DNA of 33,996 nt from a virus, in the IMG/VR virus record IMGVR_UViG_3300035698_004505, positions 1 to 33,996 of that record; one strand, 5' to 3'. The notes beneath the pieces are model-generated. The model saw nothing but the letters and a program-made list of their open reading frames with translations, had not been told where the DNA came from and did not search any database. Of the stretch, positions 140 to 33,046 are shown in pieces. Made by a program: the position numbers and the translations under genes. Position 1 is the first letter of the stretch. Every line of letters starts with the position of its first letter.

Positions 140-202
140 AAAATTTTTTAAAAATTTTAGAAAAATGAAAAATGGATTTTTGATTCGGGGAACAAAAATG
201 GC
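140..202. other. AT-rich block beside the heptamer array
   Basis: The stretch is dominated by A and T runs, with only scattered G and C, and contains near-palindromic A4T6/A5T4 tracts at 140-158. An AT-rich segment flanking a repeat array is the usual layout of a DNA unwinding element. That role is an inference from position only. Confidence 0.35.
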
Positions 203-277: not shown

Positions 278-609
278 TGTGCCACTGTGCCACTGTGCCA
301 TAGATTTCCTATTGTTGGTTTCAAAATGTGCAACAGTAACTTACACTATGTAATTTTTACAATTCATCTATTCCCATTTTCCTTACAAGTAAGAGAAAAA
401 GCATGGCACATGGCACACGAACCCCCGAACCCCGCGCCACCACTCAACATTTCCTGTGCCATGCCCCCTGTGCCATAGATTTAAAAACCAGGGCAAAATC
501 CGAGCTTGGCACAAGGTCTGCGTCATTCGACGCATAGTGTAAACCCGTTTGTGCCGCAGCTCCGCGTCATAACACGGTGCATACCAACTATGGCACAAAC
601 TATGGCACA
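278..609. repeat. TGTGCCA/TGGCACA heptamer array (iteron- or operator-like)
   Basis: Ten exact copies of TGTGCCA or its complement TGGCACA lie in 332 bp. Plus orientation: 278, 286, 294, 455 and 469. Minus orientation: 404, 411, 507, 591 and 603. A near copy (TGTGCCG) is at 549. Three copies at 278-300 are tandem with an 8-bp period, and 586-609 is a perfect 12-bp tandem of AACTATGGCACA. The fuller core CTATGGCACA occurs at 588 and 600, and inverted at 294 and 469. About 0.04 copies would be expected by chance. The layout fits iterons of a replication origin or a multi-site operator; the binding protein is unknown. Confidence 0.75.
519..534. repeat. small inverted repeat
   Basis: TGCGTC and GACGCA form a perfect 6-bp stem around an ATTC loop, inside the heptamer array. 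No T-run follows on either strand, so it is not a normal terminator. It may be a protein-binding site or part of an origin. Confidence 0.4.
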
Positions 610-696
610 GACAAAAAACCCAAATTTCTAAACGCATTGCACAAACTCAAAGGTTAACACATTCGGCTTGGCAACAAAAAAAAGCATGAAAAACCC

Positions 697-725
697 TTGA
701 TTTTGCTATGCACGCGCTATACACT
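697..725 (+). promoter_or_regulatory. candidate early promoter
   Basis: TTGATT (697-702) is followed after 17 bp by TACACT (720-725), or after 15 bp by TATACA (718-723). Either pair resembles a host sigma-70 promoter. It stands at the end of the non-coding region, about 55 bases before the first start codon, with an A-rich leader between, and is the only good candidate for driving the early operon. Confidence 0.4.
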
Positions 726-780
726 AACAACATAACAAAAAAATAAAATAAAAAAAAACACCTAAAAAGGAGCCAAAAAC

Positions 781-843
781 ATGTACAGATTTAACTATAA
801 AAACACTGGCAAAGATCCCGAATATTTCACAGGAGTTGAATAA
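781..843 (+). CDS. 20-aa leader peptide, first ORF of early operon
   Basis: A 20-codon frame (begins MYRFNYKNTGK) starts eight bases after a perfect AAGGAG Shine-Dalgarno site (767-772), the best ribosome site in the left region. Its stop codon overlaps the next start by one base (TAATG), so the two are translationally coupled. It resembles no family I know. It may be a real micro-protein or a leader that feeds ribosomes into the next gene. Confidence 0.55.
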   Translation: MYRFNYKNTGKDPEYFTGVE

Positions 844-1079
844 TGGACTGGATAATCTGCGATTGGGCAAACAATCGGCTTTTTGGGGGGGAGACTTTTC
901 CCACAATGGAAGAGGCGGACCAACATTTGGAAGCCTATTTATTTGCGAGGGTTTGCGGGAACAACGACGTTACCATGCAAGACCATGATCTTAATGATGA
1001 GCAGTGGCACACGTTCTATGACTTAAAGGGTGAATATTGGATAAGGCCCAATAAAGAGGCTAGAAAGGGGTGGATATGA
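843..1079 (+). CDS. small early protein, 78 aa, unknown
   Basis: This acidic 78-aa protein contains several Trp and His residues and starts MDWIICDWANN. It starts at the TAATG junction with the leader peptide, with GGAG about ten bases upstream of its ATG. Its TGA stop overlaps the next ATG (ATGA at 1076-1079). No signal peptide, membrane segment or known motif is visible. As the first sizeable early gene it may act on the host, but that is a guess from position. Confidence 0.75.
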   Translation: MDWIICDWANNRLFGGETFPTMEEADQHLEAYLFARVCGNNDVTMQDHDLNDEQWHTFYDLKGEYWIRPNKEARKGWI

Positions 1080-1228
1080 CTAACTACAGCTCAAGCTACA
1101 CGTTTAAGTACAGGCAAGGGTTTATTCACGGCGCAACTATTGACGGCAATGAAGTGATAAAGGTCAACGTCGATAAGTATGCGTATGTGGTTTATGTGAA
1201 ATCAATTCTCGCCTGCTCAAACGCTTAA
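1076..1228 (+). CDS. small early protein, 50 aa, unknown
   Basis: A 50-codon frame (begins MTNYSSSYTFK) overlaps the previous stop as ATGA and has AAGGGG about seven bases before its ATG. It is rich in Tyr and Val, with an alternating pattern in the second half that suggests beta strands. I recognise no family. The coupling and ribosome site are the reasons to accept it. Confidence 0.6.
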   Translation: MTNYSSSYTFKYRQGFIHGATIDGNEVIKVNVDKYAYVVYVKSILACSNA

Positions 1229-1262
1229 TAACTAAACATACTAAAAAACAAGAGGGTGTTAA

Positions 1263-1394
1263 ATGAACCAAAAACTGGCAATAAAAGAAAACATATATTC
1301 GATCAGGGACCTCGAATCTCCCTACACTGGCAATACTAAGCAGATGGCAAAGGTGGCGGCTAGGGCTTGCGCGGGGGTGGAGATTGGATTGTGA
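1263..1394 (+). CDS. small early protein, 43 aa, unknown
   Basis: A 43-codon frame starts at ATG 1263 after an AGAGGG ribosome site (about 1251-1256). It is basic in the middle (KQMAKVAARA) and has no membrane segment. Its 3' end overlaps the TTG start of the Cys-rich gene at 1384 by 11 bases, a pattern of coupling seen throughout this operon. Function unknown. Confidence 0.5.
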   Translation: MNQKLAIKENIYSIRDLESPYTGNTKQMAKVAARACAGVEIGL

Positions 1395-1518
1395 TATTTG
1401 TGCGCAGTGTGGAGAGCACACTGGTTTTGAAGAGGACCCCGAGACTGGGGACCTATATTCCCAGTGTTGTGGAAGTGGCGCTTTAAACACTGACCCTGAC
1501 GTAGATATGGAGAGGTAG
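1384..1518 (+). CDS. Cys-rich small protein, probable zinc-binding, 44 aa
   Basis: Starting at TTG 1384 this 44-aa frame reads with a CDICAQC cluster at residues 3-9, a HTGFE segment, and CC at 28-29 followed by GSG. Five or six cysteines in 44 residues, spaced in CxxC steps, suggest a small zinc-binding knuckle; similar short CxxC...CCG proteins occur in phages. A GGGGG run eight bases upstream and GGAG nearer in can serve the non-ATG start. It sits between other early genes, 3 bp before the next ATG. The start is uncertain but the frame is convincing. Confidence 0.6.
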   Translation: MDCDICAQCGEHTGFEEDPETGDLYSQCCGSGALNTDPDVDMER

Positions 1519-1521
1519 AAA

Positions 1522-1761
1522 ATGGTTGAGATTGAATATGATGATCACACGTTATTGATTGGCAAGCTATCGTCTGTGGATGATAGTTTTGACCATGAGT
1601 TTGGCAAAGAAGAAAGCTTTACGCCATGTTTAGATAGTTTTCATGTGGTGGTGTATATGGGTGGTATGGACTACGATATCACAAGCGCGTTATCGGATAA
1701 GCAGTTGACTTACTTTAAAGAACATTTTATGGAAAAAACACAAGGAAGGCGGGCACCATGA
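1522..1761 (+). CDS. small acidic early protein, 79 aa, unknown
   Basis: An acidic 79-aa protein begins MVEIEYDDHTLL, with AGAGG just upstream of its ATG. It has alternating hydrophobic residues in the first half (a likely small beta domain, with a VVVYMGGMDYDI strand) and a helical end. Its stop overlaps a nine-codon ATG frame at 1758. No family recognised. Confidence 0.7.
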   Translation: MVEIEYDDHTLLIGKLSSVDDSFDHEFGKEESFTPCLDSFHVVVYMGGMDYDITSALSDKQLTYFKEHFMEKTQGRRAP

Positions 1762-1783
1762 GTAAAATAATAAGGGGGCTTAA

Positions 1784-1900
1784 ATGATTTTTGTATGGCT
1801 ATGGATTGGCTTTATGCTTGGCATGGGCGTTATGACTTTGGTGCAAATAAACGAGAAACCATCTCGTGGTGAAGATAAATACAAACGCTGGACGGAGTAG
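1784..1900 (+). CDS. single-helix membrane peptide, 38 aa
   Basis: A 38-codon frame from ATG 1784 has a GGGGG ribosome site at 1774-1778 and overlaps the stop of a nine-codon frame (1758-1787) as ATGA. Residues 1-22 are hydrophobic, with Trp, Phe, Met and Gly; the rest is charged (EKPSRGEDKYKR). The pattern is that of an inner-membrane peptide with a cytoplasmic tail. Small membrane peptides in early operons often alter the host envelope or block superinfection; nothing here proves that. Confidence 0.6.
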   Translation: MIFVWLWIGFMLGMGVMTLVQINEKPSRGEDKYKRWTE

Positions 1901-1903
1901 CAG

Positions 1904-2779
1904 ATGCGAGCCTTTCACAATGACGTAAAAATTAAGAATAAATATTTAAGCCGTGTCCGCGCTCATGAAAAAGCTGACGAAGTTGTTAAGGGCAAGTATT
2001 GGGAAAACGGAAAAGGATGTGCGATCGGCTGTACAATTCACGACAGCAACCACGTTACATACGAAAGTATCTTAGGCATACCAAGGATTTTAGCAAGACT
2101 TGAAGATAATATTTTTGAAAACTTGCCAAATGGTTTAGCTAAAACTTGGCCACGTAGATTTTTGGCTTCCATAGAGGTGGGCGCTAATCTAGAAATGGTC
2201 TGGCCTAAATTTGCAACTTGGCTACTAACTGACAGCGAATTTGGTGTGATTCAGTTTGCAAAAACAGATGACCAAAGACAAGCCATTTACAGCGTGTCTG
2301 ACCTGTATGTGCTTAAAGCTGAAGGCGCAGACATTGGCGCAAATGATTGGCTAGAAGCTGCTGCTTATGCTGCTTATGCCGCTAATGCTGCTGATGCTGC
2401 TGCTGATGCCGCTAATGCTGCTTATGCCGCTGATTATGCTGCTGAATATGCTGCTTATGCTGCTACTACTTATGCTGCTACTGCTTATACTGCTGCCGCT
2501 CGTGCTGCTTATGCTACTGCTCGTGCTGCTTATGCTTATGCCGCTAATGCTGATGCTGCCGCTAATGCTGATGCTGCCGCTGATGCTGCCGCTAATGCTG
2601 CCGCTAATGCTGCTACTGCTTATGCTGCTTATGCTGCTGATTATGCTTATGCTTCTTATGCTGTTGCTGCTTATACTGCTACTGCTACTGCTACTGATGC
2701 TTACACTGCTGACGCTCGCACCAAATTTCGTATAGCTCAAAGCAAAAAACTTTTACAGTTACTTAAGGAGTGTAAATAA
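1904..2779 (+). CDS. phage protein with Ala-rich (AAYAANAAD) repeat tail
   Basis: The protein has 291 residues. Residues 1-147 form a globular domain with CAIGCTIH, GIPRILARLED and WPRRFLASIEVGA segments, which I recognise from conserved hypothetical proteins of phages and bacteria whose function is unknown. Residues about 148-270 are a low-complexity tail of Ala pairs alternating with Tyr, Asn, Asp or Thr (units such as AAYAANAAD), encoded by GCT/GCC-rich triplet repeats. The last 20 residues (TKFRIAQSKKLLQLLKEC) are basic and helical. GGAG lies seven bases before the ATG. The tail could form a long Ala-rich helix like type I antifreeze proteins, but no ice-binding or other role can be claimed. 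Confidence 0.85.
   Translation: MRAFHNDVKIKNKYLSRVRAHEKADEVVKGKYWENGKGCAIGCTIHDSNHVTYESILGIPRILARLEDNIFENLPNGLAKTWPRRFLASIEVGANLEMVWPKFATWLLTDSEFGVIQFAKTDDQRQAIYSVSDLYVLKAEGADIGANDWLEAAAYAAYAANAADAAADAANAAYAADYAAEYAAYAATTYAATAYTAAARAAYATARAAYAYAANADAAANADAAADAAANAAANAATAYAAYAADYAYASYAVAAYTATATATDAYTADARTKFRIAQSKKLLQLLKECK
2347..2715 (+). repeat. GCT/GCC triplet-rich repeat tract in coding sequence
   Basis: About 370 bases are built mostly from gctgctNatgct-type units, and all three forward frames plus a reverse frame stay open here. The repeats encode the Ala-rich tail of the 291-aa protein. Such tracts expand and contract by replication slippage, so tail length probably varies between relatives and the tract is a risk for misassembly. 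Confidence 0.85.
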
Positions 2780-2780
2780 A

Positions 2781-2849
2781 ATGGAACCATTATTTTGGGG
2801 CGTGATAGTTGGCGATATTATTCTGGCAAACGCGCACGAGAGGCACTGA
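2781..2849 (+). CDS. 22-aa hydrophobic micro-ORF
   Basis: ATG 2781 follows AAGGAG (2765-2770), which lies inside the end of the Ala-rich gene. The 22-residue product is mostly hydrophobic (PLFWGVIVGDIILA) and then ends in charged residues. The ribosome site supports translation. It may be a tiny membrane peptide or a coupling peptide for the gene at 2856. Confidence 0.35.
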   Translation: MEPLFWGVIVGDIILANAHERH

Positions 2850-2855
2850 ATAAAG

Positions 2856-3041
2856 ATGTATAAATGCCCAACTTGCAACAGCCCAAGGGTGGGTGAGAAA
2901 ATCAGCACCTACCCACTATATAAAAAGCTAAAGCTTATCTACGAACGTGGCTGTTATATGGTCTTGCAATCCGACGGCATCGACTGGGAAAAGGTCGAGC
3001 ACGTTTGCGCGCTACTTCAAGCACCGAAGGTGTCCCAATGA
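2856..3041 (+). CDS. small CxxC protein, 61 aa
   Basis: The 61-aa product opens with a CPTC pair at residues 4-7, and two further single Cys residues lie later, so it may bind zinc through a partial ribbon. The rest is mixed charged and hydrophobic. Its TGA overlaps the ATG of the next gene (ATGA at 3038-3041), which also encodes a CxxC protein, so the two are probably made together. Function unknown. Confidence 0.65.
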   Translation: MYKCPTCNSPRVGEKISTYPLYKKLKLIYERGCYMVLQSDGIDWEKVEHVCALLQAPKVSQ

Positions 3042-3358: not shown

Positions 3359-3375
3359 GCATTGGGGATAAGCAG
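3359..3375 (+). promoter_or_regulatory. leader motif before primase, shared with 8514-8529
   Basis: GCATTGGGGATAAGCAG lies directly against the GTG start of the primase gene and recurs, with one base less, before the exonuclease gene at 8514-8529. GGGGA within it is the likely ribosome site. The conservation extends beyond the ribosome site, so a translational control element is possible. Confidence 0.5.
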
Positions 3376-5705
3376 TGATTCAAATTCTAGGTTTAAGAAA
3401 AATGGACGATGGGACCACCGTCCAAACTTTTGCCGATAAAAAGTGGCAATTCGACACCGTGTCGGACCTCTTCGAGGACACACACACGGTCTTAAATAAA
3501 GTACCAGAAGACGAACGTTACAATCTATATTTCACAGTACATAACTGCGCCGGAATCGAGGCGCGTGACTTCACAGAGCAATGGTTCATGCCGTTTGATA
3601 TAGATAACTGCAAAGAAGAACAAAAAGAAGAAGTGTTCACAGCGTTTTGCGACGTGTTTAAAGTATCAAAAGCAAAAACACTGGCTACGTGGTCAGGCAA
3701 CGGGATGCAATTTTTCATAGAGCTTGAAGAGCCGATAAAAGATAAGCAATACTTCGATATTCACAGACCCGTTTATAAGCTAGCGCTAGAGATGTTAAAA
3801 AAAGAACTCGAGCTTAGGAAGCTTAAGGGAAAGCCCGACTCTTCTGTGTTTTCTTATCGAAGACTTATGCGGTTCCCCGACACGCTGAACGTAAAGCCCC
3901 ACGGAAAAAAGAAAGCATACGTGGTACAAAAGCATGCCGAGCCCCAGGGCTGGAGCTTTTCCAAAGTACTGGCAGTACCCGGAGTCGATAGCCGTGGAGA
4001 AATTCCCATGCGTGAATACGCATCGTATCCGGCACCGGATGTGGAAGCGGTCCAACAGGAGTGCAACTTTTTAATAACTGCCAAAGCCGACCAGAACTCT
4101 TTATCTGAGGAACAGTGGTACGCGGTGCTTGGAATAGTTGGGCATTTGCCCGGAGGCCGCGCCCTAGCCCATGAATATAGCAAAGGCTATAAGGGGTACT
4201 CGGACAGTGAGACCGACTTTAAAGTGGAGCACGCGATTGCGGCCAGTGGTCCTAGGACTTGCGCTAACATTGAAAGCTTAAGTAAGGCGTGCCTTGATTG
4301 CAAACACTATAAATCGGGACTTAGGTCGCCTATTTCCATTAAGGGTGAGAACTATATAGCTAGCGAGGGTGACGGTTTTTACAAGGTGTATATAAACCAT
4401 CGGGGCCAAGAGAAAAAAGAGCCCCAGTACGAAGACCTGGTAAAATACTTGAATAAAAAAATGGGGAAGTCCGCGAACACACCTATTGGAATGTACGTCT
4501 ATGATGAAGAAGAAAAGATATGGGTTACAAAGGATGAAGTAGTTATCAAAAATTTCTTCTATTCTTCTATGCGCCCCAAGCCTCGAAACAACATTGTGGA
4601 AGAAGCGTATAGAACACTTAGCCACTTTAGGGCCATGCCAGTTTCTTTTTTTGATAAGTCAAAAAGGATCGTGAACCTGCAAAATGGTGTTCTTGATATA
4701 AAAACACGGCATCTAATACCCCATTCGCCGGACTTTGGTTTTAGAAATGTGCTGTCATATAACTACGAACAAGGGGCCGAGTGCCCTAATTTTAAGGCAT
4801 TTCTTCTGGGCATAATGTGTGACGATGAGGACTTGGTAAAGATCATCCAAGAATTTATGGGGTACATTGTATCGGGCGACGACTGTTGGTTACATAAGGC
4901 GTTGATCTTTATAGGCGAGGGTAGCAACGGGAAGTCCACCCTTAACCAGGTCTTACTTAGTATGGTGGGGGAAAATAACTGCTCGAAGGTTCCGCTGTCT
5001 AGATTTAGTGACCCGCAGTTTTTGTTCCAGCTTGAGGGTGCACTTGTAAACCTGGCAGATGAGAACAGCCCCGACGCTTTACTTAATTCTGACACGTTCA
5101 AAGAAGCTGTATCGGGCGGGTATATCAACGTAAAGAAGCTCTATTCTCAACCGTACCCTATGAAAAACAGGGCCAAGTTTATCTTTAACTGCAACTCGAT
5201 GCCTATTTCAAAAGACAAAACCATGGGGCTATATCGAAGGATGCTTTTTGTGCCGTTTGATAAGGTGTTTACGGAAGAAACGGCTGACGTATTTATCGTA
5301 GATAAGCTTTTGGAAGAGCTTCCAGGGATTTTAAACTTCGCGCTTGAGGGTTACGACAGGCTTATTAAGAACAAGAAGTTTACGGTGTCAGTTCAGTCAG
5401 AGGACATACTAGATAACTTTAAAGACGCTCAGAACGAAGTTCAGCAATGGCTTGACGAAAGTGTACAAATAATACCAGATAAGGATAGCTTTGTTGCTAG
5501 CTCAGTGCTATACAAGCACTATCAAGATTGGTGCGAGGAAAACAGAAAAAAATATGTCACCAATTTTGCTGAGTTCGGTTTTAAACTTCGGAAGTTTGCG
5601 GCAGCGAATGGTGCTAAGTCTCTTAGGAGAAGGATTGATGAAACTAAAAACCCAATTCGAGGTTACTCCGGGATTAAGCTACTAAAAAAAGAGGAGCGTT
5701 TTTGA
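3375..5705 (+). CDS. bifunctional primase-polymerase / SF3 helicase
   Basis: This 776-aa protein should make primers and unwind the phage origin or fork. The N-terminal third looks like an archaeo-eukaryotic primase: FDID near residues 73-76, SGNG near 106, and an RRLMRFPDTLN segment near 162. A Cys cluster (CANIESLSKACLDC) near 295-310 may bind zinc. The C-terminal half is a D5/P4-type superfamily 3 helicase: Walker A GEGSNGKST near 514, Walker B NLADE, the FNCN sensor motif and the GLYRRM arginine finger. It starts with GTG at 3375, with GGGGA upstream. Its TGA overlaps the TTG of the next gene (TTGA). It is the first replication gene after the structured RNA region. Confidence 0.93.
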   Translation: MIQILGLRKMDDGTTVQTFADKKWQFDTVSDLFEDTHTVLNKVPEDERYNLYFTVHNCAGIEARDFTEQWFMPFDIDNCKEEQKEEVFTAFCDVFKVSKAKTLATWSGNGMQFFIELEEPIKDKQYFDIHRPVYKLALEMLKKELELRKLKGKPDSSVFSYRRLMRFPDTLNVKPHGKKKAYVVQKHAEPQGWSFSKVLAVPGVDSRGEIPMREYASYPAPDVEAVQQECNFLITAKADQNSLSEEQWYAVLGIVGHLPGGRALAHEYSKGYKGYSDSETDFKVEHAIAASGPRTCANIESLSKACLDCKHYKSGLRSPISIKGENYIASEGDGFYKVYINHRGQEKKEPQYEDLVKYLNKKMGKSANTPIGMYVYDEEEKIWVTKDEVVIKNFFYSSMRPKPRNNIVEEAYRTLSHFRAMPVSFFDKSKRIVNLQNGVLDIKTRHLIPHSPDFGFRNVLSYNYEQGAECPNFKAFLLGIMCDDEDLVKIIQEFMGYIVSGDDCWLHKALIFIGEGSNGKSTLNQVLLSMVGENNCSKVPLSRFSDPQFLFQLEGALVNLADENSPDALLNSDTFKEAVSGGYINVKKLYSQPYPMKNRAKFIFNCNSMPISKDKTMGLYRRMLFVPFDKVFTEETADVFIVDKLLEELPGILNFALEGYDRLIKNKKFTVSVQSEDILDNFKDAQNEVQQWLDESVQIIPDKDSFVASSVLYKHYQDWCEENRKKYVTNFAEFGFKLRKFAAANGAKSLRRRIDETKNPIRGYSGIKLLKKEERF

Positions 5706-8535: not shown

Positions 8536-9261
8536 ATGAAAATATTAGGACTCGATTATGAAACATCCTGGACGAATCCAGTTAACGCAAAACTTGCAAG
8601 GCCCACCGAGATCGGTGCGGTCTTGTACTGTACACAGACAAGGAAGCCGTTAAAGATTATGAATGAGCTAATCCATGAGTTAGACCATCCGCAATCCCCT
8701 CCTGAGCTAGTAGCTTTGACAGGAATAACGGACGAAATGAAGGAGACCTACGGCGTCCCCTCCATTAAGGCAATGGGTATGCTTAATGATATGATGGCTA
8801 AGTGTGACTATGTGGTAGCACATAATGGAAACGAATTTGACCGTGTTATATACATGGAAGAGTGTGCCAGGTTTTCCATAGCCCCCTCTTTAAAACAATG
8901 GATTGATACCAAGCTTGATGTTCCATACCCGGAGTATATAAAAACCAGGAAGCTCTCGCACCTGGCAGCCGAACTCGGTTTTGCAAACCCGTTCCAACAC
9001 AGAGCCCTGTTCGACGTTTTGACAATGATTAAAGTAATGGAGCAATTCGACTTTAATGAAATAATAGAGTTAGCTAAACAACCCAACATGACAGTGATTG
9101 CCAATGTTTCTTTCAAGGACAAAGACCTTGCGAAAAAAAGAGGCTACCACTGGGACGGAGAAAACAAACAATGGAAAAAACAAATGAAAGAACCACAAGC
9201 GGAACTAGAAAGGGACCAAGCCCCGTTTCCGGTGACGCTGTTTCAACCGACGACATACTAA
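8536..9261 (+). CDS. DnaQ-like 3'-5' exonuclease with DUF5710-like tail
   Basis: Residues 1-180 carry the DEDDh exonuclease signature: GLDYETS (Asp and Glu near residues 6-9), AHNGNEFD (His96-Asp102), and HRALFD (His155, Asp160). Enzymes of this fold remove nucleotides from 3' ends for proofreading or repair. Residues about 195-222 (VSFKDKDLAKKRGYHWDG followed by QWKK) match the short DUF5710-type module seen at the end of phage and plasmid DNA enzymes. The phage also encodes a polymerase-linked exonuclease at 9585, so this second enzyme probably has a separate role. The final 91 bases overlap the next gene. Confidence 0.88.
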   Translation: MKILGLDYETSWTNPVNAKLARPTEIGAVLYCTQTRKPLKIMNELIHELDHPQSPPELVALTGITDEMKETYGVPSIKAMGMLNDMMAKCDYVVAHNGNEFDRVIYMEECARFSIAPSLKQWIDTKLDVPYPEYIKTRKLSHLAAELGFANPFQHRALFDVLTMIKVMEQFDFNEIIELAKQPNMTVIANVSFKDKDLAKKRGYHWDGENKQWKKQMKEPQAELERDQAPFPVTLFQPTTY

Positions 9262-9443
9262 AAAAACACAGCGACGCCTTGCTTGAGATACACACGTATA
9301 TATCGGGAGTGGAGTTTAACAGACATCGAAAAACCCCCGACCCGTTAATGGCAAACGTGGTTGCGTTTTTGGCACAGGCCCAGGGGGACTTAAACAGATA
9401 CTTGAAACAAAGGATTAAAGATGAAGAGTACGGTAAAGAATAA
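9171..9443 (+). CDS. small protein, 90 aa, unknown
   Basis: It begins within the 3' end of the exonuclease gene (91-base overlap), with GGAG about a dozen bases upstream of ATG. The first 25 residues are polar and probably disordered. Residues 28-85 are helical (DILKKHSDALLEIHTYI, VVAFLAQAQGDLNRYL). Its stop lies 23 bases into the following ribbon-helix-helix gene. Function unknown. Confidence 0.6.
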   Translation: MEKTNERTTSGTRKGPSPVSGDAVSTDDILKKHSDALLEIHTYISGVEFNRHRKTPDPLMANVVAFLAQAQGDLNRYLKQRIKDEEYGKE

Positions 9444-9588
9444 AGAGGTAACCTTTTTTATTAGGAGTTTGCCAAACGAAGTGGCAGCTAAGATTAGAAA
9501 GTACGCCGAAAGAAATAGGATGACTTTAGCCGGGGTGGTTATAAGGATGTCTGAAAAGCTTGAAGACGATGGTTTCTTTTCTAAGTGA
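9421..9588 (+). CDS. Arc-like ribbon-helix-helix protein, 55 aa
   Basis: A 55-codon frame from ATG 9421 reads KEVTFFIRSLPNEVAAKIRKY, then AERNRMTLAGVVIRMSEKL. A short strand with alternating residues followed by two helices is the ribbon-helix-helix (Arc/MetJ) pattern, with TFFIRSLP as the DNA-contacting strand. Such proteins are dimeric DNA-binding repressors. Its end overlaps the GTG start of the polymerase exonuclease gene (GTGA at 9585-9588), so the two are coupled. It is the only likely DNA-binding regulator found in the window and might bind one of the palindromes or heptamers. Confidence 0.7.
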   Translation: MKSTVKNKEVTFFIRSLPNEVAAKIRKYAERNRMTLAGVVIRMSEKLEDDGFFSK

Positions 9589-10139
9589 ACGTCATAGAAG
9601 TAACCAGTGGTCAGTACCAGTCTGTAATCGACAGTTTTGTTGGTAAGCAGTTGGGGATAGATACTGAAACTACTGGTAAATCCTTCTCGGATGTCCCCTT
9701 TGTTCTCACAATAGCTGAAGGGGATAACGTCTATTACTTCGACGTTAAAGACGTGAGCGAATCCGTCGTTCGAGCAGGGTTATTTTTTTCGCATAATATA
9801 AAGTTCGACATAATGATGCTCGAGAAAATAGGGGTGAAGCTAGATGGAGACATCCATTGCACCATGATTACCGAGCGCCTTCTGCGAAATGATATGATGG
9901 CATACTCACTCGATGCCACTGCAAAAAGGTATGGCTACGAGAAAGACGACAGCGCCCTGGCTTTTATAAAACAAAACAAGCTGTACGAAGAGCGTAAAAT
10001 AATGGGTGTCACCATGGACAAGGTCCCGCAATACTCGAAGCTACCAAAGGAACTTCTTCTGAAGTATGCGACCACGGACGCGCACCTCCACTTAAAGATA
10101 GGACAAGCGCAACTTGCAAAGCTTAACGAACCTGCATAA
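9585..10139 (+). CDS. DNA polymerase I-type 3'-5' exonuclease domain (split)
   Basis: The 184-aa product is a complete DEDDy proofreading domain: GIDTETTG (Asp and Glu near 25-27), HNIKFD (His70-Asp75) and YATTDAHL (Tyr161, Asp165). In normal family A phage polymerases this domain continues into the polymerase domain. Here the frame stops at TAA 10137-10139 just after the exonuclease, and the polymerase domain continues in the +1 frame. It starts at GTG 9585, overlapping the previous stop. It should work with the product of the next gene, either as a separate subunit or, if ribosomes shift frame, as one chain. Confidence 0.9.
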   Translation: MNVIEVTSGQYQSVIDSFVGKQLGIDTETTGKSFSDVPFVLTIAEGDNVYYFDVKDVSESVVRAGLFFSHNIKFDIMMLEKIGVKLDGDIHCTMITERLLRNDMMAYSLDATAKRYGYEKDDSALAFIKQNKLYEERKIMGVTMDKVPQYSKLPKELLLKYATTDAHLHLKIGQAQLAKLNEPA

Positions 10140-11304
10140 TAATGAAATGGCACTGCTTCAAGTATGTGCAAGCATGGAGCTGCGGGGTGTTCTTTTAAAT
10201 AAGGCATACGTGCAAGGTGCGTATCGCCACGAAATGGACTTAGTTACTAAAGCGAGGATTGATTTTGAGACGGACACGCGAAGACCATATAAAGACTCAT
10301 CTAAGTTATTTGCTGAAATATTCACCGAAAGAGGCGAGCACTTTCCTAGAACGGATAAAGGAAACCCTTCCTTCACAGGAGATTTCCTTGATCTTTGCAA
10401 CACTAGAACGGGAAAGGTTATTAGAAAAATTAGACACCATGAAAAACGAGCTACCACATACTTCCTAAACTTTATGTACTACATGGATCAAAACGATATG
10501 ATCCACCCTTCGATGAACCAAGCCGGAACCACGACTGGCAGGTTCAGCTACTCCCAACCCAACCTACAAAATTGCCCCAAAGAAGACGAAGAGGCAGACG
10601 CGCTGTCTTTAACTAACGTCCGCAGGTGCTTCATACCACCGCTCGGGTACAAAATATTAGCAGTGGATTATGCGCAGCAAGAGTATCGACTAATGCTCGA
10701 CTATGCGGGCGAGAAAGGGATGATCCATAAAGTAATGGGCGGGGCCGATGTCCACCAAGCTACAGCCGACCTACTCCTCATCTCCCGTAAAAGAGCGAAG
10801 ACATTAAATTTTATGGTTTTATACGGAGGTGGTATTAAAAAACTAGCCGCCGCCCTCGACGTAAACATAATGACAGCTAGGGAAATACGAGACGCCTACT
10901 TCTACAAACTACCAAAGGTTGCGTACTTCATAAAGCAAGTGGCAAAAAGGGGGGAAGAACGTGGCTTTATATATAACAAGTTTGGTCGAAGGTTTTGGTG
11001 CTCCGACTATAGCTTTAGTTATAAACTTCCAAACCATTTAATCCAAGGTACTGGGGCCGATGTAATTAAACACGCCATGGTTAAAATCCACTGCCTTCTA
11101 AAAGATTATCAAACAAAGATGGCTCTACAGGTACACGATGAATTGATCTTCTATCTAAAAGACGGCGAGGAAGAAGTAGTACCAAAGATCAGGGAGATTA
11201 TGGGGTCAGTGTATGACCCGTTTAACGGCATGAAACTTATCACCGACGCCAAGATATCGGACAGGTCTTGGGCGCACTGGGACCTGGAACCATGGACAGG
11301 TTAG
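10114..11304 (+). CDS. family A DNA polymerase, polymerase domain (split)
   Basis: The 396-aa frame carries the family A motifs: motif A VDYAQQEYRLM (catalytic Asp near 185), motif B RKRAKTLNFMVLYGG (Arg225, Lys229), and motif C QVHDELIF (His341, Asp342, Glu343). It is the phage replicative polymerase. Residues encoded from 10114 onward (LTNLHNNEMALLQV...ME.RGV) already match the start of this region in Pol I, so homology crosses the 26-base overlap with the exonuclease frame. The possible TTG 10114 and ATG 10147 starts both lack a clear ribosome site. A frameshift or stop-restart could make it. Confidence 0.92.
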   Translation: MQSLTNLHNNEMALLQVCASMELRGVLLNKAYVQGAYRHEMDLVTKARIDFETDTRRPYKDSSKLFAEIFTERGEHFPRTDKGNPSFTGDFLDLCNTRTGKVIRKIRHHEKRATTYFLNFMYYMDQNDMIHPSMNQAGTTTGRFSYSQPNLQNCPKEDEEADALSLTNVRRCFIPPLGYKILAVDYAQQEYRLMLDYAGEKGMIHKVMGGADVHQATADLLLISRKRAKTLNFMVLYGGGIKKLAAALDVNIMTAREIRDAYFYKLPKVAYFIKQVAKRGEERGFIYNKFGRRFWCSDYSFSYKLPNHLIQGTGADVIKHAMVKIHCLLKDYQTKMALQVHDELIFYLKDGEEEVVPKIREIMGSVYDPFNGMKLITDAKISDRSWAHWDLEPWTG

Positions 11305-11588
11305 AAAGCCGTTTTGAAAAACGCTGTATTGAGCAACTCAAAGCACTTCCTAAAAGCTGGTGGCCTGATAAGGCTCCGTCAGGTGCCATCGTCGGACTTC
11401 CTGACAGAACCGGGTGCATAAATGGCCGATTTATCTCCCTTGAATTTAAGCGTAACAGAACTGCCGCAACCGCTGAACTACAAAAGTACAATGCGATTAA
11501 GATAAGACACGCCGGGGGCCGATCCTTCTTCGTATACCCCGAGAACTGGGAAGAGATATTTAACAAACTAAAGGAGCTATCCAAATGA
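11292..11588 (+). CDS. VRR-NUC-type nuclease
   Basis: The 98-aa protein contains a VRR-NUC core: SGAIVGLPDRTGC followed by RFISLEFKRNR, where Asp and the Glu-x-Lys pair are the catalytic residues, then an AGGRSFFVY strand. VRR-NUC proteins act as structure-specific or Holliday-junction-type nucleases, which suits clean-up of branched replication or packaging DNA. ATG 11292 is preferred; a TTG eight codons upstream (11268) would only add residues with no motif. The gene overlaps the polymerase by 13 bases and the next gene by ATGA. Confidence 0.85.
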   Translation: MDRLESRFEKRCIEQLKALPKSWWPDKAPSGAIVGLPDRTGCINGRFISLEFKRNRTAATAELQKYNAIKIRHAGGRSFFVYPENWEEIFNKLKELSK

Positions 11589-12013
11589 TGTACTCAGAAA
11601 ACGAACGAGAGGTAACATTAAAGCAACTAAACGCTTTTAGTTTAAACCCAATTGCTGCATGGGGGATGATCGAAAGCTATATTGAGTTTGTACACCCACT
11701 GCCAATAAAGCTAACCTACGAATACAAAACCGAAGACGACATCATGGACCTTAAGGCAAAGTCTAAAAAGCTAGTAGAGCTTGAGATCCGCGCAGTCGGG
11801 AACCTGTCGAATAAATTTAAGGGTAACCCGCTTAAGCTAGACCAAACATTCACAAGCCTTTTTTGCAGATCATACTATGAGTACCTGCGCCCGCTTCCAA
11901 TAAGCTTCCAAGTCATGGACGCAATCGAGATACATATAAGAACACCGGGTGTGTCAGAAGCAGACGCCAAGAACCCTTTACGAAACCACTGGCAGTTCCA
12001 AAAGAAACCTTAG
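11585..12013 (+). CDS. last gene of replication arm, 142 aa, unknown
   Basis: AAGGAG lies nine bases before ATG 11585, which overlaps the nuclease stop. The protein holds two similar short segments, EFVHPLPIKLTYEYKT (residues about 34-49) and EYLRPLPISFQVMDAI (about 98-113), both of the form aromatic-x-x-PLPI, perhaps an internal repeat. No known motif. Its TAG stop overlaps the TAA stop of the convergent lysozyme gene at 12010-12013. Confidence 0.8.
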   Translation: MMYSENEREVTLKQLNAFSLNPIAAWGMIESYIEFVHPLPIKLTYEYKTEDDIMDLKAKSKKLVELEIRAVGNLSNKFKGNPLKLDQTFTSLFCRSYYEYLRPLPISFQVMDAIEIHIRTPGVSEADAKNPLRNHWQFQKKP

Positions 12014-12510
12014 TGCATACTTTGGGTAGTAACGGCTGCCACAAAACAAACATAGGTTATGTGGTGAAGGCGCTTTAACCAGCCTTTGCCGAACACAGAC
12101 CAGTTAGGATTAGACGCGTAGGCGGAGAATCTATGGTCTTGGTACAGGAACAAAAACTCCATCGGATCTATGTCAGTCAAAGATCCGATGGTAACCGGAC
12201 CTATTATCCCGTCGATGGATGTCTTGCCTATTCGTTGCAGGAATGTTGCAGCCCTGGTAACTCCCTGGTTAACCGCGCAGTCAAAAACTATCAGCCGCAT
12301 AAAACCCGGCAGGTCCTCGCAAGAACACGCGTCCCAGTAGTATTCTTTGTATAGGGCTTTCGCCCTTTGAAGGGACATGTTGTCTATGTCTTCTTTTGGG
12401 AATGCTCTTTTGGAGATGCCATACTTGGTGGCTTTTCCAGGGTCTCGGGGGTCGTCTACCATTCCCCCTTCATGCGTTAATACTATCTGTACTGCTTGCT
12501 CAAAATCCAT
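12010..12510 (-). CDS. GH108 lysozyme (endolysin)
   Basis: The 166-aa enzyme should cleave cell-wall glycan at lysis. Residues 11-33 carry the GH108 signature THEGGMVDDPRDPGKATKYGI with the catalytic Glu14, followed by a YYWD segment and the FDCAVNQG helix. Residues about 96-110 (IDGIIGPVTIGSL) match the peptidoglycan-binding module typical of the family. There is no signal peptide, so release should depend on a holin. It is the last gene of the late operon and overlaps the spanin-like gene upstream by 11 bases. Confidence 0.92.
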   Translation of the reverse strand: MDFEQAVQIVLTHEGGMVDDPRDPGKATKYGISKRAFPKEDIDNMSLQRAKALYKEYYWDACSCEDLPGFMRLIVFDCAVNQGVTRAATFLQRIGKTSIDGIIGPVTIGSLTDIDPMEFLFLYQDHRFSAYASNPNWSVFGKGWLKRLHHITYVCFVAAVTTQSMH

Positions 12511-12748
12511 GTTTACTCCTACAGGCGTTAAGTTCCGCAGATAGATCTTCCAGGTCTTTTTGTGTCATGCACACCCACGGATCTTGTCCCGGGATTACCT
12601 CAAAGAATTCAAATTTCTTCGGTAGAAACTCTCTCTTTGGCTCGTTTGTTGAACACCCCAGCCATCCGCTCGCCGTCGCGATCACGATAAGCAGCGCCCA
12701 GTTCCTTAAGGTCTGCTTTGATTTTTGAGTTGAGCCTGTGTTTCTCAT
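12500..12748 (-). CDS. spanin-like lipoprotein candidate, 82 aa
   Basis: A basic N-terminus, then a hydrophobic stretch (residues 17-31) ending in GWLGC with Cys32, resembles a lipoprotein signal, although Trp at the -3 place is not canonical. The remaining 50 residues hold WVCMTQKDL and a helical segment ending near a second Cys. Most of its first 140 bases lie out of frame inside the gene at 12609-12821, a nesting typical of Rz/Rz1 spanin pairs. Its place next to the endolysin supports a role in outer-membrane disruption. An inner-membrane spanin is the alternative. Confidence 0.6.
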   Translation of the reverse strand: MRNTGSTQKSKQTLRNWALLIVIATASGWLGCSTNEPKREFLPKKFEFFEVIPGQDPWVCMTQKDLEDLSAELNACRSKHGF

Positions 12749-12821
12749 AGTGAGCCACCATTTGTTTTATGAGCCCTATAATTTCAGGCAGGCTCATAAA
12801 AAATGCTATTACCGACCTCAC
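12609..12821 (-). CDS. lysis-cassette small protein, 70 aa
   Basis: It starts with an ATGA overlap on the preceding gene and runs out of frame through much of the spanin-like gene. The first 28 residues are moderately hydrophobic (VIAFFMSLPEIIGLIKQMV) and may be a membrane anchor. The rest is charged and helical, ending ERVSTEEI. It could be the inner-membrane partner of an overlapping spanin pair, or a holin accessory protein. Evidence for either is positional. Confidence 0.55.
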   Translation of the reverse strand: MRSVIAFFMSLPEIIGLIKQMVAHYEKHRLNSKIKADLKELGAAYRDRDGERMAGVFNKRAKERVSTEEI

Positions 12822-13054
12822 TTTTTTGGAAGCTTAATCGACGTTAAGTAGTCCACAAACCATACCAAAAATTGGTAAGTCTTTGTTTGTTTGAACTTCT
12901 CTAATTTCTCATTATCAGATTTACTTGGAGTAGACTCCACATACGTATGAAGCAGCGTCATGATGGGCTTAAATATGGCTCGAAATACCCCTAAAATGAC
13001 CAGTATTCCTGCTAGATTCGGATTGGCTGCGATAAAATCCAGTACAACATCCAC
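12818..13054 (-). CDS. holin candidate, 78 aa
   Basis: GTG at 13054 has a strong GGGGG ribosome site upstream. Residues about 14-35 form a hydrophobic helix (LAGILVILGVFRAIFKPIMTLL) and a second hydrophobic patch lies near the end (QFLVWFVDYL) before KLPKK. Size, membrane helix and place in the lysis cassette suggest a holin that opens the inner membrane for the lysozyme. The neighbour at 13064 is a rival candidate. Confidence 0.6.
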   Translation of the reverse strand: MDVVLDFIAANPNLAGILVILGVFRAIFKPIMTLLHTYVESTPSKSDNEKLEKFKQTKTYQFLVWFVDYLTSIKLPKK

Positions 13055-30966: not shown

Positions 30967-32280
30967 TTACTCCCACCCAAATACGTCATACGACGACTCC
31001 GCGTACCGTTGTAAATCACCCTTCATGGGCCGATCCTCTTCAAGCCTATAACCAGTCGCAAATGTACGTAAAGCATCCGCTGAATGCGATGCCCAGTTAT
31101 GCTTAGGTACAGTCTTAAATACGTTTTCCCTGTTGTCAAACACACGCTCGTATGATTTAAGAGCCTCGATCCCGTAACCACACTCACCCTCGTCAAACCA
31201 CATCCTACCAAGTATAGACCGAACCGCCGCTATCCCATCTTCTCTCTTTAGTCGAGGAGCAATACGCACGTTCTTTAGTCCAAGCTTTTTGATTATCTCA
31301 ACCCGACTCTTCCCCGTCCCAAGCTCCCGGGCCGCCGCATCGTGAGGCAGTAAGTGCTCAGCGTAGTCGTACGGCTTATCCCGAATCATCTTCACAATCT
31401 CAGGCAAACCCTTCGAAGATACCTCGAGATGATCAATCACATGAAGCTCCCGACCACACTCTTGTATAAACCACACAACCGTCGAATCATCCATTCCCAA
31501 ATCCCACGCCGTCGTCACACGCGAATGATTGTCATACGGAACCTTCGCTATCCGGCCCTCCTTCTGAGCAAGACCCATCTCCGCCTTGTAATACGCACCC
31601 ACCAAAGCCGCCGTAAACGAACACTCATACTCCTGCTCATACTCCTCAGGACCCATAATAGCCGCCGCCGCTTCCAACTCCGCCTGAGGTATAACCCCAG
31701 TCTCAGAAGCCTTAAATCTACACGCAAACCATGTACCCGTCTTATCGCTAGTCGCATGACGGTACATCTCATACGCGTGATTAGAGCCCTTCGGCGTAAA
31801 AATAAATATCGCCCAACCCTCACGATCAGATAACGCCGGACGTACCACCTGCGTAAACACAGTCGGGTCCTGCTCCGAATACTCATCAAGTACCACACCA
31901 TCCAAATACACACCGCGTATCGCAGCAGGTTTCTCAGCACCTAACAAAAATATCCGTATCTCATCGCGCTTATCCGACCTCGGAATGATCGCCTTTAACT
32001 CCGTCTCCCGATACTCCACCCCAGGAACATCACGAAGTATTTCCTTTAAAAAATCCCAAGAAATACGCTTGGCAGCACCATAAGTAGGTGCTATATATGC
32101 ATACTGCGGATTCTTCCTAGGATTGCGTAAAGCCCGGTCCACCATCTCATTTAAACAAAAAATCGTCTTACCAAACCTACGATGCGCTAATATAACGTTA
32201 AACCTACGCACTCGCGCATGCAAAAAATCCTGGTGCCTGCGAGGACGGTAACCCGTACTAACTACCCTGCTACTCACCAT
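30967..32280 (-). CDS. terL: terminase large subunit
   Basis: This 437-aa motor and nuclease packs DNA into the head. Walker A LAHRRFGKT is near residues 31-39 and Walker B GVVLDEYSE near 127-135; the nuclease domain begins at AWDLGMDDSTVVWF near 256-270. Length and motifs are complete, so it should be active. It overlaps the small subunit gene by 11 bases. Confidence 0.97.
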   Translation of the reverse strand: MVSSRVVSTGYRPRRHQDFLHARVRRFNVILAHRRFGKTIFCLNEMVDRALRNPRKNPQYAYIAPTYGAAKRISWDFLKEILRDVPGVEYRETELKAIIPRSDKRDEIRIFLLGAEKPAAIRGVYLDGVVLDEYSEQDPTVFTQVVRPALSDREGWAIFIFTPKGSNHAYEMYRHATSDKTGTWFACRFKASETGVIPQAELEAAAAIMGPEEYEQEYECSFTAALVGAYYKAEMGLAQKEGRIAKVPYDNHSRVTTAWDLGMDDSTVVWFIQECGRELHVIDHLEVSSKGLPEIVKMIRDKPYDYAEHLLPHDAAARELGTGKSRVEIIKKLGLKNVRIAPRLKREDGIAAVRSILGRMWFDEGECGYGIEALKSYERVFDNRENVFKTVPKHNWASHSADALRTFATGYRLEEDRPMKGDLQRYAESSYDVFGWE

Positions 32281-33046
32281 TAGCTACCACCCTTCCTATC
32301 TCCGCAAAATCTGACCCCTCCTCAAAACCAACGTCCCCAGGCCTACGTATCCCAGTCTCAATAGACGCAACCCCGATCCGAGCATCTATCTTCTGACGAC
32401 TCACAGGACTCAACTTCTCATCCCCAATGCCCGCCACATACTTGTACACATCCGTCTTCAAACGAGCCAACGCCACCTCGTCCTTATCCGGTCCCGTGGC
32501 CTCCACCGTCTCTACCAACTTCTCGAAATATCCCTCAGCTCGGTCCCTCTTCGCCTGCTCAAACGCGTCGCCAAAATCTGAATAATGACGACGCCACTTA
32601 CACAACTTCGCATACGTAATCCCAACCGCTCGACACGCATTCTTTAAACTCGATCCCTCAAGTATTAACCCGCATATCACATCCCCAATCAACGTACTGT
32701 AACGTATCCCAGGCTTTGAAAACTCCTCCTGAGACTGACCAGTGTGCGATACCCACCAACGCTCGCCCTCTATTACCACTACCTCGTACTTATCCATGTC
32801 CTCATAACGAAGATCCCGGTGCGCTACCTCGCCCGTTTGCGGGTTGAACGCCTCCGCAGTGCCAGAGGGGGATATGCGGTAGCGCCAATCTTCGGGGTTC
32901 GGGTGTCTAACAGGTGGTGGAGGTGGGATGTCTGGTGCTGGTTGCGTGATAGGAGTATCTTCGATGACTAAATCGAGTTGGTTTGGATCGGGCTCATTGG
33001 AATCCGCTCCGTCGTCTGCTTTTTCAAGGTGATCTTCTGGGAGCAT
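32270..33046 (-). CDS. terS: terminase small subunit
   Basis: The 258-aa protein has an unstructured Pro/Asp-rich first 100 residues, then a helix-turn-helix (DVICGLILEGSSLKNACRAVGITYAKLCKW), followed by helices including FEQAKRDRAEGYFEKLVETVE, the layout of DNA-recognition terminase subunits. It would bind the packaging site, probably nearby. ATG 33046 has no good ribosome site; a palindrome lies just upstream. Confidence 0.88.
   Translation of the reverse strand: MLPEDHLEKADDGADSNEPDPNQLDLVIEDTPITQPAPDIPPPPPVRHPNPEDWRYRISPSGTAEAFNPQTGEVAHRDLRYEDMDKYEVVVIEGERWWVSHTGQSQEEFSKPGIRYSTLIGDVICGLILEGSSLKNACRAVGITYAKLCKWRRHYSDFGDAFEQAKRDRAEGYFEKLVETVEATGPDKDEVALARLKTDVYKYVAGIGDEKLSPVSRQKIDARIGVASIETGIRRPGDVGFEEGSDFAEIGRVVANGE

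Follow-up and report, generated by a model that had tools for sequence, protein, structure and literature searches.

A mixed-orientation TGTGCCA iteron array is a candidate replication origin in an uncultured T7-like podovirus

We found that a dense array of short repeats at positions 278–609 of an uncultured phage genome is probably the phage's replication origin, and that this origin would belong to the P4/PICI working type, best known from satellite elements such as SaPIs and P4, a reading that draws on sequence comparison and on a structural model. The stretch of DNA analysed, here called the window, is an entire IMG/VR record of 33,996 bp that is classed as linear, and its gene content is that of a T7-like podovirus. 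The array holds ten exact copies of TGTGCCA or its complement TGGCACA in both orientations, with starts at 278, 286, 294, 455 and 469 on the (+) strand, and at 404, 411, 507, 591 and 603 on the (−) strand. These copies form four clusters and one lone iteron: three tandem TGTGCCA with a period of 8 bp at 278–300 (+), two tandem TGGCACA with a period of 7 bp at 404–417 (−), two copies of TGTGCCAT at 455–475 (+), the lone TGGCACA at 507–513 (−), and two copies of CTATGGCACA with a period of 12 bp at 591–609 (−). The shared core, CTATGGCACA, occurs four times in the array and does not recur in the window further downstream, the extended form of the iteron is approximately CTGTGCCATAGATT, and three more sites with one mismatch to TGTGCCA lie at 327, 550 and 637. 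The 8 bp tandem, the 12 bp tandem and the shared core that had been described in the original prediction are all real, as is the density of heptamers that it had claimed: the whole window has 16 copies of TGTGCCA compared with 4.04 expected (sd 1.99; maximum of 100 shuffles, 11), which corresponds to ~0.04 expected per 332 bp, and ten of the 16 are in the array. Slippage can spread short words, and the tandem periods of 7, 8 and 12 bp could reflect a chance or mutational build-up of repeats that have no function. However, the orientations in the array are mixed and the spacing is irregular, TGTGCCA is scarce elsewhere in the genome, and a relative carries a similar word in an array at the corresponding place (see below), making functionless repeat build-up extremely improbable.

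The array lies between a leftward block of packaging and structural genes (TerL, portal-type head-tail adaptor, major head protein and tail protein) and the rightward replication genes, whose early operon encodes a P4-family primase-helicase, an SNF2-type helicase, exonucleases and a family A DNA polymerase. The gene layout bears out the earlier claim that the array precedes this operon. In the circularised order, the array is ~2 kb, plus the gap between the contig ends, upstream of terS-terL. Among named phages the best portal matches were those of Pelagibacter podoviruses, at ~40% identity. Megablast against phages gave no close relative of the window, distant blastn of the window's left end against phages and plasmids gave no match, Rfam and tRNA scans found nothing, and the same-population contigs L001, L127 and L128 do not include the array. 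GC skew, which had been suggested as a check on where replication initiates, does reverse sign at the ends of the contig, but the direction of transcription reverses there as well, and the two are confounded. The skew also changes sign near 10–11 kb (seen within 10,000–13,000), ~1–2 kb before the convergent gene boundary.

Within the array, a stretch at 301–403 (71% AT, AT50 at the 99.6th percentile of the window) is flanked by oppositely oriented iterons and is a candidate unwinding element. The AT-rich stretch that the original prediction placed at 140–202 is 78% AT and includes the 60 bp with the highest AT content anywhere in the window (140–199), which lie outside the array; the stretch may serve as a second unwinding region or as a host-factor region. 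The window has the multiple short iterons in both orientations of a P4/PICI-type origin. Our comparison with relatives gave a similar picture. G006, the closest relative to share the window's order of genes (54% identity in TerL, 49% in portal and 29% in primase), carries at the corresponding position an array whose word, GGCACAGG, is related to TGTGCCA and occurs in both orientations around a strongly AT-rich core; this array was located by inspecting the matching place, and the locus derived from G006 (L213) fails the 7-mer shuffle test described below. In G004, another relative, GTGGTCCA repeats follow immediately 3′ of the primase gene. The relatives differ in how the replication module is arranged: in G002 (9026–11149) and G004 (471–3038) the primase gene has an inverted orientation with respect to the SNF2 helicase gene, which is not the case in the window.

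A profile scan for P4-family primases yielded 80 loci, the window included, and each was searched for a 7-mer array in mixed orientation that surpassed every one of 40 shuffles. Such arrays were present in 31 of the 80 loci, among them the window, and the remaining 49 (~60%) had no significant array under this 7-mer shuffle test. The repeated word varies among the phages. Arrays of at least seven copies were found in 24 of the 80 primase loci and in one of 35 control loci without the primase, and arrays at the same threshold as in the survey were found in five of the 35 controls, mostly with five copies, a comparison that is only rough since the control loci are shorter on average. Twelve of the 31 arrays begin between −50 and 400 bp from the primase stop, where 0.9 would be expected (Poisson p 2.5e-10). 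For nearly all arrays, the AT-richest 50 bp in the array region reaches at least the 98th percentile of the locus, and in the array-bearing primase loci it usually has iterons on either side. A cultured phage, Alteromonas phage R9Y2, shares the layout, with its array at 4606–4869 of locus L264. The CGTATCC array of G007/L136 was dropped as a comparable array because it is a low-complexity repeat. The plasmid pST5A (5.2 kb) and the streptococcal satellites Javan758, Javan740 and Javan555 have an array of inverted iterons that surrounds an AT core immediately 3′ of the primase, and terminase is not listed in the stretches examined of these four elements.

These elements bear on whether the array could instead be a pac/cosB-like site, at which the small terminase subunit (TerS, 32270–33046) would bind and start packaging. 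TerL is the most shared gene family among the TGTGCCA-array loci, and is 2–5 kb downstream of the array in seven of them and in the window (circularised order); similarly, the primase-family records with TerL that were found by family search mostly have it 1.4–4.2 kb downstream of the array. Also consistent with packaging, L119/G009 encodes a homologue of the window's TerS (36% over 73 aa) with a four-copy TGTGCCA run 1.5 kb upstream. This run, at 889–926, has a period of 10 bp and one orientation, and P4-family primase was not found in that record. The podovirus layout itself puts the array upstream of TerL, however, so position alone cannot separate an origin from a packaging site. The array touches the primase in G037, G046 and G040, with TerL ~10–19 kb off, and two Pelagibacter phages with related portal genes and no such primase annotated have no comparable array. 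Taken over the array family as a whole, rather than for the window alone, the array is not tied to the terminase module, and since arrays directly 3′ of the primase are carried by the terminase-free plasmid and satellites, the packaging-site reading is demoted and we consider it unlikely. A scan of viral contigs for TGTGCCA itself returned mostly coding repeats (GTS-type proteins), leaving a noncoding mixed-orientation subset. Among the phages with a TGTGCCA array, a P4-like primase-helicase gene adjoins the array in L114, and records without a TIGR01613 primase have an AAA_25 helicase-type primase 7 bp away (G014), a PriCT_1 primase 143 bp away (G017) or a primase-helicase ~560 bp away (G011). 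An exception is G016, whose five-copy array is near a TerL gene. In the TGTGCCA-array records, PF05272 and DUF927 were either not detected or scored below the cut-off.

For the replication origin, we propose that the initiator is the P4-family primase-helicase (TIGR01613, D5_N, DUF5906) encoded at 3375–5705 on the (+) strand, which was identified with Pfam, PHROGs and TIGR01613 (E 1e-62). Its C-terminal 140 aa (5283–5705, (+) strand) are predicted to form a winged-helix domain (mean pLDDT 88.8) that we propose as the iteron binder. The model matched best to 1DP7, the DNA-binding domain of RFX (Z 10.9). The match to 1KA8, the origin-binding domain of P4, had Z 8.5 over 83 residues at an rmsd of 2.8, and as this Z barely exceeds the range usual for unrelated pairs, it supports but does not prove a role in origin binding. 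The window encodes a primase-helicase with a predicted C-terminal winged-helix domain, for which we infer origin binding. The winged helix of P4 alpha binds repeats at the P4 origin (PMC4234260), and in SaPI Rep and SCCmec Cch2 it is the C-terminal domain that binds iterons, which lie downstream of the respective gene (PMC7581432). Across the loci, iteron similarity did not correlate with C-terminal-domain similarity (Mantel r 0.04, p 0.24), and for this reason we offer the primase-helicase as binding partner as a proposal.

The original prediction had named a different ligand, the ribbon-helix-helix (RHH) protein at 9421, and had offered a multi-site operator as an alternative to an origin, in which a phage repressor such as this protein would control the early promoter. 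RHH proteins recognise short DNA repeats, and the array's place before the early operon would suit an operator. A sigma70 scan of 278–609 found no consensus promoter inside the array, although the sigma70 consensus may not fit the host's promoters. Primase-adjacent arrays elsewhere sit 3′ of genes, not at promoters. Moreover, tblastn with the RHH protein found homologues only in same-population contigs among the compared relatives (a weak test at 55 aa), whereas the primase-helicase recurs with arrays. The RHH protein thus has no support as the ligand, and we judge an operator to be unlikely, and less likely than an iteron origin.

If the array is an origin, the C-terminal winged helix of the primase-helicase would bind the TGTGCCA iterons, hexamers would form on the oppositely oriented iteron clusters, and the AT-rich stretch at 301–403 and/or that at 140–202 would melt. 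The same primase-helicase would then unwind and prime the DNA for the phage's DNA polymerase. Known systems resemble this arrangement in part. PICI/SaPI origins (SaPIbov1, EcCICFT073) likewise involve a Rep/primase-helicase with an origin-binding C-terminal domain (PMC6092414, PMC7581432), but they are located immediately 3′ of rep, whereas in the window the array precedes the primase gene by 2.7 kb. PICIs are also satellites and the window is an autonomous T7-like podovirus, whose iterons, unlike those of PICIs, are distributed over four clusters and a single copy and whose strongest AT block falls outside the array. Satellite phage P4, with its ori/crr and alpha protein, shares with the window a TIGR01613 primase-helicase and, in the match of the C-terminal model to 1KA8, a similar winged helix; the window differs in its iteron word, in that no second crr-like site was identified in it, and in being a full phage with structural genes. 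SCCmec Cch2 is a Primase_Cterm-family helicase whose C-terminal domain also binds short repeats (PMC7581432), but its site consists of three AAGTG repeats rather than ten heptamers in both orientations. Since the window has all the testable features of P4/PICI origins except the position immediately 3′ of the initiator gene, its array would be a variant that works like the P4/PICI type. The iteron origin of the original prediction is well supported by arrays that recur beside P4-family primases, including in terminase-free elements, and nearly always with an AT core, but its description as "undescribed" is not: P4 and PICI/SaPI origins operate likewise (PMC6092414, PMC7581432), and the proposed origin in the window is thus not new in kind.

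This origin layout has been called unique to PICIs (PMC6092414), and our analysis would extend it from PICIs to phages. Our literature search, covering mostly openly readable papers, returned no account of the layout in lytic phages. An origin near the primase has reportedly been described in Streptococcus thermophilus phage Sfi21, and so how general the layout is among phages may already be known in part. The array provides a concrete candidate origin for an uncultured T7-like podovirus, and for many phages the survey suggests an origin-finding rule, namely to search near a P4-family primase for an array of iterons in both orientations that surrounds the AT-richest DNA. The specificity of initiators for iterons and the compatibility of phages with satellites become testable as a result, and co-infecting phages and satellites could be made incompatible by their differing iteron words.

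We also noted several other features of the window. At the left end of the contig, 17–33 and 74–90 are a direct repeat of TGCCGTAAAATGTCACC, with a GTGACA...TGTCA inverted element between the two copies. This repeat might be an insertion-sequence end or a terminal repeat, and the 17-mer has a single occurrence in each of 22 bacterial contigs. At 2367–2637, ATGCTGC is repeated 15 times as a coding repeat inside a 291-aa ORF (1904–2779) that has a weak match to phrog_3416. DNA polymerase A (9585–11304) is encoded by two overlapping ORFs, an exonuclease at 9585–10139 and a polymerase at 10114–11304.
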